From Chitinophaga pinensis (lineage in GTDB: Bacteria > Bacteroidota > Bacteroidia > UKL13-3): a DNA stretch of 64,000 bases. Both the position numbers and the translations under genes were made by a program. Where the stretch lies: contig CAMDHZ010000004.1 of NCBI GenBank assembly GCA_945898275.1, positions 1-64,000 on the forward strand, read 5' to 3'. Positions within the stretch are counted from its first letter, which is position 1. Each line of letters begins with the position of its first letter. The notes beneath the pieces were generated by a model that was not told the origin of the DNA, did no database searches, and saw nothing but the letters and a program-made list of their open reading frames with translations. This document shows positions 22,418 through 28,872 of the stretch, piece by piece.

Positions 22418-23893
22418 ATGAAAAGGCTTAAGATACTTATTTTATTTACTCTTTTTGCATGTACTACTTTTGCTCAACACAGCGAAGAAGAAAAATATGT
22501 TCACGAAACAGATTCTTTGGCACTGCTTCAAATCAAAGCGTGGCAAGGTTTAAAATTTGGTTTGCTGATGCATTGGGGACCTTACAGCCAGTGGGGCATT
22601 GTAGAATCTTGGTCCATTTGCCCAGAAGAATACGGCTGGTGCGAGCGAAAAATGGGTAAAAATCCAGGAAATTATTTTGCCTACAAAGCCGAATACGAAA
22701 ACTTAAAAGCTACGTTTAATCCAGTTCGGTTCAACCCAGAACAATGGGCTTTAGCAGCTAAAAATGCTGGAATGCGTTATGTGGTTTTTACCACCAAACA
22801 CCATGATGGATTCTCTATGTTTGACTCTAAACTTACAGATTATAAAATTACTGATTCATCTTGTGCCTTTGCAAATCACCCTAAAAAGAACATTACCTTA
22901 GAGATATTTAATGCTTTTCGAAACCAAGGACTTTGGACTGGAGCTTATTTTAGTAAACCAGATTGGCATCACCCAAATTATTGGGATAGTATGTACCCTC
23001 CAAGAGATAGAAATGTAAATTATGAGCCAGAGTCAAATCCCGAAAAATGGAATAAATATGTTGATTTTACCCATGGACAAATTTTCGAGTTGCTAAAGGA
23101 TTATGGAAAAGTAAATATCCTTTGGTTGGATGGAGGATGGGTTTCTAAAAAATCTAAAATTGAAATTGAATCGTGGTATGACGAACAGTTTAAAGAAAGT
23201 AAAAATGGATATGTTTTTCATAGAAACATCAACCAAGATATAAGAATGGATGAATTGGTGGCAAAGGCAAGAGTGATGCAGCCAGGACTAATTGTAGTGG
23301 ATAGGGCGGTTTATGGAAAAAACCAAAATTACCTTACACCAGAAAATCGAGTTCCTGCTAAGGAATTGCCTTATCCATGGGAAAGTTGCATAATTTCTGG
23401 AGGTGGTTGGGCACATACACCAAATGCCAAATATATGAGTGGAAGAGAAGGAATTCACTTATTGGTGAATATCGTTTCAAAAGGAGGTAATTTATTGTTA
23501 AACATTGCGCCAACTCCCGAAGGGGAATGGCAGCAAGGAGCTTACCAATTACTCGAAGCCTATGGAGAATGGATGAAAGTAAATGAAAGTGCTATCTACA
23601 ACACAAACACCTTAGCTCCTTATAAAGAAAACCAAGTTTGCTTTACACAAGATTCCATAGGTAGAACAAACTTTATCTACCTACAAGATAAGAACGAAAC
23701 TTCCATACCTTCTCAAATTAGGATTGAATCACATTGCCCAAAGTCGGGCTCCACTGTAACTTTGCTTGGGTCAAGTCAAAAACTTAAGTGGAAGAAAAAT
23801 GGCAATGGCTGTATCATTTATATTCCAAATTCACTTAAGAATAAAATGCCTTGCAAATATGCTTGGGTTTTTAGGGCAGAAGCAATTAAGTAA
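22418..23893 (+). CDS. Secreted GH29 alpha-L-fucosidase (first copy)
   Basis: This retaining glycosidase releases L-fucose from glycans. A signal peptide (KRLKILILFTLFACTTFA) precedes the (beta/alpha)8 domain, which begins LKFGLLMHWGPYSQWG. The conserved TKHHDGFSMFD is at about 126-136 and the nucleophile is Asp238 in ILWLDGGW. The C-terminal sandwich domain is short. Length 491. With the second fucosidase, the mutarotase, FucP and the kinase fusion it forms a fucose locus. Its sequence differs strongly from the second copy (SGG and Trp-rich loops), so the two may cut different linkages. Confidence 0.93.
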   Translation: MKRLKILILFTLFACTTFAQHSEEEKYVHETDSLALLQIKAWQGLKFGLLMHWGPYSQWGIVESWSICPEEYGWCERKMGKNPGNYFAYKAEYENLKATFNPVRFNPEQWALAAKNAGMRYVVFTTKHHDGFSMFDSKLTDYKITDSSCAFANHPKKNITLEIFNAFRNQGLWTGAYFSKPDWHHPNYWDSMYPPRDRNVNYEPESNPEKWNKYVDFTHGQIFELLKDYGKVNILWLDGGWVSKKSKIEIESWYDEQFKESKNGYVFHRNINQDIRMDELVAKARVMQPGLIVVDRAVYGKNQNYLTPENRVPAKELPYPWESCIISGGGWAHTPNAKYMSGREGIHLLVNIVSKGGNLLLNIAPTPEGEWQQGAYQLLEAYGEWMKVNESAIYNTNTLAPYKENQVCFTQDSIGRTNFIYLQDKNETSIPSQIRIESHCPKSGSTVTLLGSSQKLKWKKNGNGCIIYIPNSLKNKMPCKYAWVFRAEAIK

Positions 23894-23900
23894 AGGTTAA

Positions 23901-24230
23901 TTATAACCTAAAAATCTGTTCCATTAGCATCCATTTTTCGCCATCTTTTGCCCCTGGTAGCGCTTGCTGATAATTCCACATTAAGCTTTCCCATGCTTGC
24001 ACTTTAGGATTGCTTTGGTCTTGTAAATTCTTTTGCTCGAAACTAAAATCATCGTTTGTTTCTAGTAACAGCACCAAACGGTTTTGTACTCGGTAAATAT
24101 CACATTGATGTATACCACTTGCTTTAATTTGCGCTAATACCTCTGGCCAAACTGCTTTGTGATGGGCCTCATAGGCGGCTATGAGCGCTTGATCAGGTTT
24201 TAGGTCCAAAGCCAATACAAATTTTTTCAT
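23901..24230 (-). CDS. L-rhamnose/L-fucose mutarotase family protein (DUF718)
   Basis: The family interconverts alpha and beta anomers of deoxy-hexoses so that transporters and enzymes can use them. The signature is AYEAHHKAVWPEVLAQI with the active-site His pair near residues 19-20, and the LMWNYQQALPG and MLMEQIF blocks follow. I take the ATG at 24230 (MKKFVLAL), one base after the fucP stop codon; the longer frame up to 24335 only extends into fucP and has no family match. In this setting L-fucose is the probable substrate. Convergent with the first fucosidase gene, with 7 bp between. Confidence 0.88.
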   Translation of the reverse strand: MKKFVLALDLKPDQALIAAYEAHHKAVWPEVLAQIKASGIHQCDIYRVQNRLVLLLETNDDFSFEQKNLQDQSNPKVQAWESLMWNYQQALPGAKDGEKWMLMEQIFRL

Positions 24231-24231
24231 G

Positions 24232-25407
24232 TCAATTTTCTTTTGGTAATTTCCAAGCAAACCAAGCAATAATTGCAAAGCAAAACATAGGAACTGTAAA
24301 GGCAAAATTAATGGTAGCAACATCTGAAATCGCACCCATTATTACAGGCAAAATTGCTCCGCCTACAATAGTCATTATAATTAGCGGTGAACCAAATCTG
24401 GTGTCTGTTCCAAGACCTTTTATACCTGCTGCAAAAATACTAGGAAACATAATTGACATGAAAAATTCTGTACCCATTAAAGCATAAATAGCCCAAAAGT
24501 CTTTTCCAAAAACTACGCCTGTAAGCAGTAGTATATTAAGCATGCTATACAGAAAAAGTAATGTCTTGGTTTGCATTACCTTTAGCAATGCTGCTCCTAA
24601 AAATCTTCCTACCATAAACAACAACAATGCGGCTGATAAGTACAATGCTGCTTTTTCATTACTCATTTGTGTTTGCGATACACAAAAGCGTATAAAAAAG
24701 CTGCCAATCCCAACTTGTGCACCAACATAAAAAAATTGAGCAATTAATGCACTACGCAATTGAGGATAACCCAACAAACGCTTAAGCGAAAATGCTTGTG
24801 TTTCCTTTTCTTGCTTAGCTTTTGGTAATTGTATTTTAATGAAAATTATCATCACAATTAACACGATTATTCCAATGATAAGATAAGGGATGCGCACACC
24901 TAGCGCATCTCCGCTGCTATCTGAAAGAATAAATTTACTTCCAAAAAGGGCAGCTAATGTTGCACCTAGGCCATTAAATGCCTGCGCAAAGTTTAGTCGC
25001 TGTGATGCTGTTTCTGGCGCTCCTAAAATGCTAACATATGGATTAGCTGCTGTTTCTAGAAATGTAATGCCTGTTGCAATGATAAACAGGCCTAGCAAAA
25101 AGAGAGGATATGAAACCAGTGTTGCCGCAGGGTAAAAAACAAAAGCGCCCAATGAAAACAGCAATAGTCCAAATACAATGGTGTTTTGATACCCGTATTT
25201 TTTTATGATAAAACCTGCAGGCAAGGCCATAAAGAAATAGGCCAAGTAAAAGCTAGAATCCACTAATGCAGATTGCATATCGTTGAGAGAACAAGCATTT
25301 TTTAAATGGGGAATGAGAATAGGATTTAAGTTATGCGCCAAGGCCCACAAGAAAAACAAACTGAAAATTGCCATCAATGGCAATGTTTGATGTAGCTTAT
25401 TTTTCAT
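24232..25407 (-). CDS. fucP: L-fucose:H+ symporter, FucP-type MFS permease
   Basis: A 12-segment major-facilitator protein of about 391 residues. The N-terminal PLMAIFSLFFLWALAHNLNPILIPHL is the classic FucP opening (FFxWG-like, with NLN/PhL), and TFLETAANPYVSILGAPETASQRLNFAQ is the family's strongest signature, with the Asn-Pro-Tyr and Arg needed for sugar recognition. Start: an ATG at 25407 shares its A with the TGA of the upstream kinase gene (TGATG), giving translational coupling; an alternative ATG is at 25413. Function as fucose importer is well supported by neighbours. Confidence 0.92.
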   Translation of the reverse strand: MKNKLHQTLPLMAIFSLFFLWALAHNLNPILIPHLKNACSLNDMQSALVDSSFYLAYFFMALPAGFIIKKYGYQNTIVFGLLLFSLGAFVFYPAATLVSYPLFLLGLFIIATGITFLETAANPYVSILGAPETASQRLNFAQAFNGLGATLAALFGSKFILSDSSGDALGVRIPYLIIGIIVLIVMIIFIKIQLPKAKQEKETQAFSLKRLLGYPQLRSALIAQFFYVGAQVGIGSFFIRFCVSQTQMSNEKAALYLSAALLLFMVGRFLGAALLKVMQTKTLLFLYSMLNILLLTGVVFGKDFWAIYALMGTEFFMSIMFPSIFAAGIKGLGTDTRFGSPLIIMTIVGGAILPVIMGAISDVATINFAFTVPMFCFAIIAWFAWKLPKEN

Positions 25408-26564
25408 CACCATATTGGATATCTTCTAACGTTTATTTTCAAAGCATTTTCTATGGGTGTTTCACTTAATAGAACAAGATAACCCCCACCTCCAGCGCCG
25501 CTAATTTTGTACCCTAAAACCATATCTTTATACTGAGAGATTAATTGTATAATATCTTCGTCAACCATTCGAGGAAACATGGCTATTTGTGCTTCAAAAG
25601 AAGCTGTCATATGTTTTCCAATTGCTTTTAGGTCTTTTTCTAACAAGGCATTCCAGCAATCCTCAGCAGCCTTAGCAAGTAATTGGGCATCGATTGGGTT
25701 TAGGTTGGTTTGACCCAATACATGATAGTTATCTTTTCTTGACCCGAGTGGTAAAAAATATAAATGTTGCTCGAGCAATTGAAAAATAGATTCATCTTGG
25801 GTATTATCTATTTGTATTGGCCAATAATCTGCTTGATACATACTTTTGGTTAAGCCAGAATAAACGATGCCAATGCTATCTTGTGAGCCTGCTATTTCAT
25901 TAGTTCCAGGTGGATTTTCAAAAGCAAAAAGTTGCTTGGCTATCAATTCATCATTTGGTCTTGGAATTTGAGTATGCCACAATTGGGTGGCACATTTTCT
26001 TGTGCTGGTTGCCATGCCACTGCGCGTATCAAATGCTAGGTTTGGTTCTATACAAAGGGTAATTACCGGTCCGCTAGCAAGTTTAGAAACAAAGGGTTGA
26101 TCTAACCAACCACCTGCCAAGTCTATGCGATAAGGGATTTGGTTTACTTCTCTTAAGGCGGTAGTAGAGCGTGCCGCTAAATCAGCATGCGGCGTTCTAG
26201 GTAGGACGATGTATTGAATGCCTTTTTGCTGGCATAAAGTTTCTTTATCTGCCGAATGTCCATCATGATTTACAATAAAAATATCCGGTTTTATTATTTC
26301 TAATTCTGGTAAGAAATCTAAGTATCCACTATCACTACTTATATAAACTTTGTGCACACAAGCAAGTGCTTCAAGTAAATATTTTCTTTCTGCTTCTGGG
26401 TTAATTGTTTTTCGTTTTTTTAAATCAAATATGGTTTGATCTGAGCCGAGGCAAATGTGCAGTTTTCCATAGGTTGCAGCACTTTTTAGGAAGGCCACAT
26501 GCCCACTGTGCAATAGGTCGAAACAACCACTCACCATTACTTTTTTATTTGCGTTATCTGTCAT
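25407..26564 (-). CDS. Fused cytidylyltransferase-like and GHMP-kinase-like protein
   Basis: Two domains are visible in 385 residues. Residues about 8-140 form a nucleotidyltransferase of the TagD/RfaE type with GCFDLLHSGHVAFL (HSGH at 19-22) and the later ARSTTALRE (about 131-139). Residues about 143-375 resemble a GHMP sugar kinase with PYRIDLAGGWLD (144-155), a loop TRSGMATST (180-188) in the place of the ATP loop, GSQDSIG (226-232) and SGAGGGGYLVLL (355-366). The gap between the first two kinase motifs is short. By context the substrate is L-fucose, giving a sugar phosphate and then a nucleotide sugar, but this is inference. It differs from the known FKP fusion, whose pyrophosphorylase domain is a different fold. 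Confidence 0.8.
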   Translation of the reverse strand: MTDNANKKVMVSGCFDLLHSGHVAFLKSAATYGKLHICLGSDQTIFDLKKRKTINPEAERKYLLEALACVHKVYISSDSGYLDFLPELEIIKPDIFIVNHDGHSADKETLCQQKGIQYIVLPRTPHADLAARSTTALREVNQIPYRIDLAGGWLDQPFVSKLASGPVITLCIEPNLAFDTRSGMATSTRKCATQLWHTQIPRPNDELIAKQLFAFENPPGTNEIAGSQDSIGIVYSGLTKSMYQADYWPIQIDNTQDESIFQLLEQHLYFLPLGSRKDNYHVLGQTNLNPIDAQLLAKAAEDCWNALLEKDLKAIGKHMTASFEAQIAMFPRMVDEDIIQLISQYKDMVLGYKISGAGGGGYLVLLSETPIENALKINVRRYPIW

Positions 26565-26617: not shown

Positions 26618-27922
26618 ATGCGCATACTTTGTTTACTATTTTTATTCATTTGGTTCAAACCGAATCTTGCACAAACAGATAGCACCAAGATGCAATGGTT
26701 TAAGGATGCCAAATTAGGGATATTTATTCATTGGGGAATCTATGCTGTTGAGGGCACAACCGAATCATGGGCATTTTATAATAAGCAAGTGCCATATGAT
26801 GCCTATATGCGCCAGATAAAAGGGTTTAAGGCTGAGAATTATCAAGCTACAGAATGGGCAAAATTAATTAAAGAGAGTGGTGCTAAATATTGTGTTATTA
26901 CTGCCAAACACCATGATGGAGTTGCCTTGTATGATACCAAGATGAATGGCTTGAGCATTCCTAAAAAATCACCGGCTAAGAGAGATGTATTGAGTCCGTT
27001 TGTTCAAGCCTTAAAAAATGAGCAATTAAAAGTGGGTATATATTACTCTTTAATTGATTGGTCACATCCAGATTATCCAGGTTTTACAAAAGATTCTAGC
27101 AGGTATAATCTTTTAAATGAGCCCTTACGTTGGCAAAAGTTCACCAAGTTTTTGCATGGCCAGATTCAGGAATTAAGCACGGCATATCAACCAGATTTGT
27201 GGTGGTTTGATGGCGATTGGGACCACAGTGCCCAAGAGTGGCAGGCTAAAGAAATTCGGGAAAGAATTCTAAAAGCCAAGCCAAGTGCAATTATCAATGG
27301 TCGTTTGCAGGGTTATGGAGATTACGCTACACCCGAGCAAAACTTTCCTGTGAGCAAACCTACTGAGGAGGCTTGGGAATTATGCATGACCATTAACGAC
27401 AATTGGGGCTATCGTTCAATTGATACCAATTATAAAACTGCATATGAACTCATTAGCATCTTTGCCGATTGCATTGGCTATGGAGGAAATTTACTATTGG
27501 ATTTGGCGCCCAAGTCAGATGGGACGTTTCCCGATAGACAAAAGTACCTAATTAAGGAGTTGGGTAAATGGATCCATAAACATGCTGAAGCTATTTATGG
27601 TGCCACCGCGGGCTTGCCACAAGGTCACTTTTACGGTGCTAGCACCTTATCTAAAGACTCTATGAACTTGTATTTATTTGTAAATAGCAGCAATGCAAAT
27701 AGTATTTATGTAAAGGGATTAAAGAATAAAATACTAAAGGCTGAAATTGTAGGAACTGCAGAAGCTATTAAACCTAAAATAGTAGGTAAGATTTACTGGA
27801 GTTCGGTTCCTGGTTTAGTGTTTTTAGATATTCCACCTGATGCCCAAGATGACTATATTACAGTGGTTAAACTAAGTTTAGAGAAACCCTTGCAATTGTA
27901 TAATGGCAAAGGAGGATTGTAA
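26618..27922 (+). CDS. Secreted GH29 alpha-L-fucosidase (second copy)
   Basis: The protein of 434 residues has a short signal peptide (RILCLLFLFIWFKPNLAQ), the GH29 core beginning KLGIFIHWGIYAV, the AKHHDGVALYDTK block (about 96-108) and nucleophile Asp198 in DLWWFDGDWD. The Trp-rich WWFDGDW is like fucosidases acting on terminal fucose in plant or mucin glycans. An exact 15-mer motif (26650-26664) is placed inside the signal peptide and reads Phe-Lys-Pro. It diverges from the kinase fusion gene and converges with the DegT-like gene (14 bp gap). Confidence 0.93.
   Translation: MRILCLLFLFIWFKPNLAQTDSTKMQWFKDAKLGIFIHWGIYAVEGTTESWAFYNKQVPYDAYMRQIKGFKAENYQATEWAKLIKESGAKYCVITAKHHDGVALYDTKMNGLSIPKKSPAKRDVLSPFVQALKNEQLKVGIYYSLIDWSHPDYPGFTKDSSRYNLLNEPLRWQKFTKFLHGQIQELSTAYQPDLWWFDGDWDHSAQEWQAKEIRERILKAKPSAIINGRLQGYGDYATPEQNFPVSKPTEEAWELCMTINDNWGYRSIDTNYKTAYELISIFADCIGYGGNLLLDLAPKSDGTFPDRQKYLIKELGKWIHKHAEAIYGATAGLPQGHFYGASTLSKDSMNLYLFVNSSNANSIYVKGLKNKILKAEIVGTAEAIKPKIVGKIYWSSVPGLVFLDIPPDAQDDYITVVKLSLEKPLQLYNGKGGL
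26650..26664 (+). repeat. Iterated motif TTGGTTCAAACCGAA
   Basis: Exact 15-mer copy inside the signal peptide of the second fucosidase, read as Trp-Phe-Lys-Pro. Confidence 0.85.
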
Positions 27923-27936
27923 AGCGCAAGATTGAA

Positions 27937-28872
27937 TTAATTTTGGACTTGAATATATTGCTCAGTTACAAACTTAAAATAATCAATATCTGCTTCGCTT
28001 AAATAGTGATGGCAAGGGATAAAAAAGGCATCCTCTCCATAGAAAACACTGTTTTGAATTCCTTGAGCGTACAAGTAGTTTTTAAAACTTGGTAAATCTT
28101 TGATGATTTGTTGGTTGTTCAATAGTAGCAGTGAAGGCACTACTTCAGGCTCGCTTGGAAACCTTAGGCTAAAGCCCAATGATTCAAAGGCTGCGCTTGC
28201 ATACTTGTGCAATTCACTTCTTTTCTGAAGGATATTGCCTACTTCTCTTAATTCAAAACCAACTACCTTTAAAACATAGTTTATTTCATCGCTTGTTAGA
28301 GATACTTTGTTCAATAGTTTTCGGTTTGAACCAACGTCTTTTCCAACTAGTAATCCACCTATTTGAATGCTAAAAAACTTAGGAAAGCTATATACACTGT
28401 AGTTGCCATATAGGCCAATTTTATGATGGTCATCTTGGCTAAAAAAGGTAGTACAACAATCCTCAATAACTGGCAGGCCAGTATTCACCAATCCAACCAT
28501 ATCTTTAAATAAATATCCAAACTCATGATTGACAAAATAGGCAGCAGTTGACTCGCTTGCTTCACGGTCCCATTGGCAGTAATTAGAAAGGGTAGAGGTA
28601 ACGCAGCCGCTAATATAAAGGTTATGAGAAGGTGTTAGAATACTTATGTTTTGAGTTAACTCAAGGTTAAGCTCCTCCATGGTAAAGGCAATGGCTTCTC
28701 TACCGTTTTTGGTAACAAGCCAATTGTTCTCTCCAAATCGTTCATTAAAATAGGTTTGTGCATATTCTGCCCAACCCGCATCAATTTTGGCATTGCGGGC
28801 AATAGATGCAGTAACAAAAGCACCAATACGAAAAGCAGGCATTAAATATGGGTCGGGGTTTGTAACAAACAT
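27937..28872 (-). CDS. DegT/DnrJ/EryC1-like aminotransferase-fold protein
   Basis: This 311-residue protein follows the fold-type I PLP pattern: the WLVTKNGREAIAFTM N-terminal helix, VIEDCCTTFFSQDDHHKIG near residue 135, and the presumed PLP lysine in YSVYSFPKFFSIQIGGLLVG. It is shorter than a typical DegT enzyme (about 370), with some active-site blocks reduced, so it may be a degenerate or specialised member. Function is likely in sugar or lipid modification. An exact 15-mer motif copy (28320-28334) is inside it, read as Gly-Ser-Asn. Convergent with the second fucosidase. Confidence 0.72.
   Translation of the reverse strand: MFVTNPDPYLMPAFRIGAFVTASIARNAKIDAGWAEYAQTYFNERFGENNWLVTKNGREAIAFTMEELNLELTQNISILTPSHNLYISGCVTSTLSNYCQWDREASESTAAYFVNHEFGYLFKDMVGLVNTGLPVIEDCCTTFFSQDDHHKIGLYGNYSVYSFPKFFSIQIGGLLVGKDVGSNRKLLNKVSLTSDEINYVLKVVGFELREVGNILQKRSELHKYASAAFESLGFSLRFPSEPEVVPSLLLLNNQQIIKDLPSFKNYLYAQGIQNSVFYGEDAFFIPCHHYLSEADIDYFKFVTEQYIQVQN
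28320..28334 (-). repeat. Iterated motif TTGGTTCAAACCGAA (minus strand)
   Basis: Exact 15-mer on the minus strand inside the DegT-like gene, read as Val-Gly-Ser-Asn-Arg; a different frame from the copy at 26650. Confidence 0.85.

Follow-up and report, generated by a model that had tools for sequence, protein, structure and literature searches.

A candidate fucose salvage enzyme joining an HxGH nucleotidyltransferase to a compact GHMP kinase in several bacterial phyla

Here we describe a two-domain gene in a 64,000-nucleotide stretch of Chitinophaga pinensis DNA (assembly GCA_945898275.1, contig CAMDHZ010000004.1, positions 1 to 64,000; referred to as the window). The open reading frame named in the original prediction at 25407-26564 is real; it lies on the minus strand and encodes 385 amino acids, an HxGH nucleotidyltransferase followed by a small kinase of the GHMP type. 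We consider it reasonably probable that this protein is a bifunctional salvage enzyme, converting L-fucose to fucose-1-phosphate and then to a nucleoside diphosphate (NDP)-fucose, most likely GDP-L-fucose. For the window's lineage it is well supported that the protein works like the fucose salvage enzyme FKP and that L-fucose is its substrate; NDP-fucose is the likely product, and GDP is the nucleotide favoured by gene context. Chances are slightly better than even that the family represents a second GDP-fucose salvage enzyme, assembled separately and spread over Bacteroidota, Chloroflexota, Verrucomicrobiota and other phyla, in which a TagD/RfaE-type nucleotidyltransferase has turned into a GTP-specific fucose-1-phosphate guanylyltransferase and is joined to an unusually small GHMP sugar kinase. 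The gene and its parts are as follows.

25407..26564, minus strand: two-domain gene, nucleotidyltransferase plus compact GHMP kinase, 385 amino acids (open reading frame, Pfam, NCBIfam, family alignment, AlphaFold2 model)
26145..26543, minus strand: HxGH nucleotidyltransferase domain, residues 8-140 (Pfam CTP_transf_like at residues 11-139, E 2.4e-11; fold like HldC, TagD and Fom1 CyTase)
26499..26510, minus strand: HSGH motif, residues 19-22 (no variation in 73 aligned sequences)
25410..26144, minus strand: compact GHMP kinase domain, residues 141-385 (AlphaFold2; hhalign to FKP and heptose kinases, E 2.2e-15; Pfam GHMP_kinases_C at residues 306-374, E 7.8e-6)
26091..26135, minus strand: kinase motif I, PYRIDLAGGWLDQP (residues 144-157) or PYRIDLAGGWLDQPF (144-158); R146, W153 and D155 correspond to FKP R592, W599 and D601 (PDB and family alignments)
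25998..26024, minus strand: altered ATP loop RSGMATSTR, residues 181-189 (GSGLGTSS in FKP; family and profile alignments)
25878..25889, minus strand: GSQD, residues 226-229; Q228-D229 correspond to FKP Q761-D762, which include the general base (alignments)
25482..25499, minus strand: GAGGGG loop, residues 356-361; G358 aligns with G326 of Amuc_1591 from Akkermansia muciniphila, a published mutant site (alignments)

Crystallographic work on FKP assigned R592, W599, D601, T602, E751, Q761 and D762 (general base) to the fucose site, where the tryptophan stacks against C4-C5-C6 of the sugar and where the exchanges W599A and D601A lower activity more than 3000-fold (PMC11982464). Residues R146, W153, D155, Q156, E216, Q228 and D229 of the window protein were placed at positions of this site by PDB alignment and by the hhalign profile alignment to six kinases, of which two are true FKPs and four are heptose-type. 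R146, W153, D155, Q228 and D229 are identical in all 81 sequences compared, and position 216 (FKP E751) is E or D in every one of them. The sole exchanged fucose-site residue is that of T602, replaced by Q in 81 of 81; otherwise the FKP site, GAGGGG loop included, is preserved. Within the family GGWLD does not vary, and the four heptose-type kinases have GGGxD at this place. Unvarying positions span both active sites: HSGH 19-22, S133, T135, P144, R146, GGWLDQPF 151-158, RSG 181-183, S187, R189, G226, QD 228-229 and GAGGGGY 356-362.

The domain assignments of the original prediction hold well. Residues 8-140 are indeed an HSGH-type nucleotidyltransferase, the second kinase motif reads exactly as the predicted altered ATP loop TRSGMATST, and the GHMP-like kinase half has the short inter-motif gap claimed for it, about 25 residues separating motif I from motif II where FKP and heptose kinases have some 70 or more extra. 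The partner of the nucleotidyltransferase is a GHMP kinase according to Pfam, and not the PfkB-type kinase of HldE/RfaE; likewise, the N-terminus matches CTP_transf_like, of the HxGH fold, and not the GDP-fucose pyrophosphorylase domain with beta-helix typical of FKP. In NCBIfam, the general cyt_tran_rel domain model was the sole one to exceed its cut-off. The models for FKP (NF009948, 53 bits against a cut-off of 721, in two stretches of the kinase region), RfaE domain II (58.4 against 181.5), TagD (TIGR01518, 38.2 against 165.4) and HddA heptose kinase (NF049969, 14.6 against 600) all stayed far below threshold, so that no curated enzyme family claims the two-domain protein, and the known heptose or glycerol enzyme that the original prediction named as a possible refutation did not turn up. 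Structure prediction, proposed there as a check together with a search for the domain order, gave a confident AlphaFold2 model (predicted local distance difference test, pLDDT, 88.9 and predicted template modelling score, pTM, 0.68 for the whole protein; 93.2 and 0.91 for the kinase domain alone). The top PDB fold match of the whole protein was 9iip, a structure of FKP with fucose-1-phosphate, which it matches in the fucokinase part.

Published genetics is available for one distant homolog. In June 2026 it was reported that all D-arabinose-resistant mutants of Akkermansia muciniphila were changed in Amuc_1591 (V176G, G326E and a frameshift), that D-arabinose toxicity is relieved by L-fucose or mucin, and that Amuc_1591, having a nucleotidyltransferase and a fucokinase-like domain, was proposed to be a fucose nucleotidyltransferase (PMC13313206). 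We identified this protein in locus L141 as one of 363 amino acids encoded beside murJ, with V176 and G326 exactly at the published positions; no fucose transport genes were recognised around it there. It shares with the window protein an HxGH nucleotidyltransferase and a GGW compact kinase in one chain, and homology is detected both by BLASTP (37% identity over 195 aligned columns, window residues 7-187, E 1e-32) and by profile (hhalign, E 1.1e-29, 319 columns). L146 (3733-5345) has, after a gene like Amuc_1591, a separate gene for a 144-residue HSGH nucleotidyltransferase of the window type, and the pair adjoins what look like deoxysugar (rml) genes. Judged by sequence, the window protein is homologous to Amuc_1591, belongs to a larger separate subfamily and is a member of neither FKP, HldE, TagD nor HddA. 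Full-text literature, with subscription journals mostly outside coverage, contained no description of the architecture beyond Amuc_1591, and the parts available to us of a 2025 paper on FKP evolution, which derives FKP from one fusion event of other domains, do not mention it (PMC12732313). Fucose salvage by a kinase plus a nucleotidyltransferase is already known; here the nucleotidyltransferase module has a different fold. What the present analysis adds is the larger subfamily with its context of GDP-sugar genes, the mapping of residues, and the mutarotase-fused and split forms.

The original prediction called the fusion unusual. It proved to be a widespread family and not a local oddity. A scan of contigs from one genome per species gave 237 stretches containing a relative, the top 80 of which are full-length, 52-92% identical, and keep the two-domain order in Bacteroidota, Chloroflexota, Ignavibacteriota, Calditrichota, Verrucomicrobiota and Spirochaetota. 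Full-length members occur in about 40 of 388 genomes of a Verrucomicrobiota sample. Distribution in Bacteroidota is patchy, with carriers in 4 of 268 genomes of a phylum sample drawn without regard to similarity, and in 9 of 64 genomes of the window's own order.

Variants of the architecture were also seen. In three Verrucomicrobiota loci (L143:3958-6622, L144:4582-7249, L145:4402-6522) the kinase is a separate gene of about 265 codons, immediately preceded by a gene for an epimerase similar to GDP-mannose 3',5'-epimerase and followed by a nucleotidyltransferase gene. In L143 the latter apparently encodes two modules, of which the first lacks HxGH. L070 (11693-12475) and L073 (11657-12475) have a paralogue consisting of the kinase only, close to a full-length copy; these two loci, from Anaerolineae and from a bin labelled Rhodospirillaceae, are near-identical, and one bin is probably mislabelled. 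L109 (8358-9494), and L092 too, has a second, divergent two-domain copy with HNGH, between GDP-mannose 3',5'-epimerase and mutarotase.

Next, we examined the genomic surroundings. In the window, the following genes accompany the two-domain gene.

24232..25413, minus strand: fucP, L-fucose:H+ symporter, overlapping the end of the two-domain gene (NCBIfam TIGR00885, 332 bits, cut-off 280)
23901..24230, minus strand: rhaM-type sugar mutarotase, starting 1 base past the fucP stop (Pfam PF05336, E 4.2e-27)
26618..27922, plus strand: GH29 alpha-L-fucosidase, divergent from the operon (Pfam PF01120, E 9.7e-86)
22418..23893, plus strand: GH29 alpha-L-fucosidase, convergent with the operon (Pfam PF01120, E 2.4e-84)

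The start of fucP sits within the final codons of the two-domain gene (ATGGTGATG, or TGATG); together with the 1-base spacing of the mutarotase, this bears out the coupling to both genes suggested earlier. The operon is bracketed by the two fucosidases, one on each side. Further out, at 27937-28872 on the minus strand, a short protein of 311 residues resembles DegT/DnrJ-type aminotransferases and matches that family in part only.

Elsewhere, 85 loci were compared (the window, the 80 relatives and 4 from the Bacteroidota phylum sample). Genes found nearby were fucP (25 loci), mutarotase (22), GH29 (15), gmd (9), fcl (8), GDP-mannose 3',5'-epimerase (7) and fucI (4), and in 41 loci one or more genes for fucose or GDP-sugars lie close by. 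Neighbours elsewhere are often related to fucose, so the other outcome that was to speak against the original prediction, neighbours without such a relation, did not occur. Neighbouring gmd, fucI and fuculokinase genes exceed their model cut-offs; Fcl is the best model for its genes, which score under its cut-off of 500, and the epimerases match at E 2e-77 and 4e-95, the next family following at about 1e-22 to 1e-25. The three other carriers of the 268-genome sample show the arrangements gmd-fcl-X-mutarotase, epimerase-X-gmd-fcl and X-mutarotase-fucP, X being the two-domain gene, and one of them carries a further copy, which is accompanied by epimerase and mutarotase. In L055 (7368-9146) and L061 (7392-9140), the two-domain enzyme carries a rhaM-type mutarotase as a fused N-terminal domain. 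A GT11 fucosyltransferase adjoins the gene once among the loci, in Treponema. In six Tannerella metagenome-assembled genomes (L021, L041, L044, L063, L072, L079), an RmlA-like gene comes after the two-domain gene, which also neighbours kduI and a short-chain dehydrogenase; no fucose genes were recognised at the locus.

At an assumed rate, not a run control, of 0.4% per 17-kb stretch, gmd beside 9 of 85 loci corresponds to P ~1e-10; when four related loci that are not independent (L059, L064, L068, L080) are merged, 6 of 82 corresponds to P ~1e-6. Anywhere in the genome, gmd is present in 42 of 51 carriers versus 174 of 268 genomes of the phylum sample, a modest gap between groups that differ in make-up; it is gmd adjacency that carries the weight. 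GT11 and GT10 occur in 5 of 51 carriers each, too rarely for a general link with either family, though the window's genome has GT10. No FKP over cut-off was found in 50 carrier genomes; since FKP is present in just 2 of the 268 Bacteroidota, its absence from carriers is uninformative and mutual exclusion was dropped as an argument.

The window's own genome contains gmd, fcl and, within a glycan cluster of the contig that holds the window, a GT10 alpha-1,3-fucosyltransferase with FucT_N (E 1.2e-31). FKP and GT11 were not found in it, and neither was L-fucose isomerase (FucI), the search leaving the non-phosphorylating catabolic route outside its scope. Import of free fucose, no isomerase pathway seen and a fucosyltransferase point to salvage.

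We propose the following sequence of events. Domain identities, conserved residues, operon, context and genome content are shown by the data above; substrate, nucleotide, product, direction and physiological role are predicted. GH29 fucosidases would release fucose, FucP would import it, and the mutarotase would supply the beta anomer. The C-terminal compact GHMP domain would then phosphorylate C1 of beta-L-fucose using ATP, with D229 as base and with W153 and D155 holding the sugar, and the N-terminal HxGH domain would convert fucose-1-phosphate and a nucleotide, most likely GTP, to GDP-beta-L-fucose and pyrophosphate. GDP-fucose so salvaged might supplement what gmd and fcl make de novo, for use in fucosylating the cell surface. 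Thus the parallel to FKP drawn in the original prediction, fucose-1-phosphate being made first and a nucleotide-fucose afterwards, finds support in the active-site residues, the context in several phyla, the mutarotase fusions, the content of the window's genome and the published Amuc_1591 genetics.

Several observations weigh against this proposal. About 70 residues fewer between motifs I and II may mean a weaker or different activity. About half of the 85 loci have no fucose or GDP-sugar gene in their flanks at the thresholds used, and many carriers own gmd, so that GDP-fucose could be made without salvage. When the kinase alone was used in the fold search, the heptokinase WcbL came first and FKP second with similar scores; the kinase fold by itself thus leaves the sugar undecided. 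Moreover, the known HxGH nucleotidyltransferases of this fold take CTP or ATP, and GTP would be unusual. The same two steps could yield CDP- or ADP-fucose for a dedicated transferase, the nearest solved nucleotidyltransferases being CTP enzymes (TagD, Fom1, ethanolamine-phosphate) and the heptose enzyme HldC, and the best NCBIfam match the ATP-using RfaE domain. We regard this as unlikely, given that adjoining gmd, fcl, GDP-mannose 3',5'-epimerase and GT11 all belong to GDP-sugar chemistry and that GT10, encoded in the window's genome, is a class using GDP-fucose.

Somewhat less likely still is a different natural substrate in some subgroups or in all, either a sugar related to fucose (L-galactose, D-arabinose, L-gulose) or a heptose. 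The stacking of the FKP tryptophan suggests that a C6 hydroxyl may be tolerated, and WcbL ranks with FKP by fold; yet the window gene neighbours fucP and two fucosidases, fucose genes occur in 13 of 13 rows of its branch in the tree, and heptose kinases carry GGGxD, not GGW. A role in heptose biosynthesis was set aside on account of the GGW motif and of the neighbours read, among which no heptose genes were recognised. Very improbable, finally, is a role in fucose catabolism or sensing with nucleotide transfer not the main task. Some relatives do sit with fucA-fucI-fucK (L008, L015), and that of L062 adjoins dehydrogenase, FAH and lactonase genes, but these loci already own a catabolic route, the window's genome yielded no FucI, both active sites are conserved, and gmd and fcl accompany other relatives in clusters for surface glycans.

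Free fucose is a widely sought resource that algae, mucus and detritus provide, and its salvage to GDP-fucose in bacteria has so far been credited to FKP and its relatives. The present family would be a different enzyme, of about 385 residues versus 950, in bacteria in which no FKP match over cut-off was found. Confirmation would put right many automatic annotations as cytidylyltransferase or heptose enzyme, reveal how environmental bacteria recycle fucose into surface glycans, offer a small catalyst for GDP-fucose production and place the Akkermansia D-arabinose finding within a wide family.

Compared with known systems, the window protein resembles FKP of Bacteroides, which makes GDP-L-fucose from L-fucose, ATP and GTP, in having a nucleotidyltransferase followed by a GHMP fucokinase-like domain in one chain, with common fucose-site residues. 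It differs in that the FKP nucleotidyltransferase has a pyrophosphorylase fold with a beta-helix domain and in the shorter stretch between its kinase motifs. HldE/RfaE, HldC (the heptose-1-phosphate adenylyltransferases) and TagD share its HxGH nucleotidyltransferase fold; HldE, however, has an N-terminal PfkB-type kinase and not a C-terminal GHMP kinase. The heptose-7-phosphate kinases HddA and WcbL have the same GHMP fold, GxQD and GAGGGG, but GGGxD in place of GGWLD and full-length motif spacing. Amuc_1591 agrees in domain order, with HxGH and a compact kinase bearing GGWLD, and differs in that its kinase half is more reduced and diverged.
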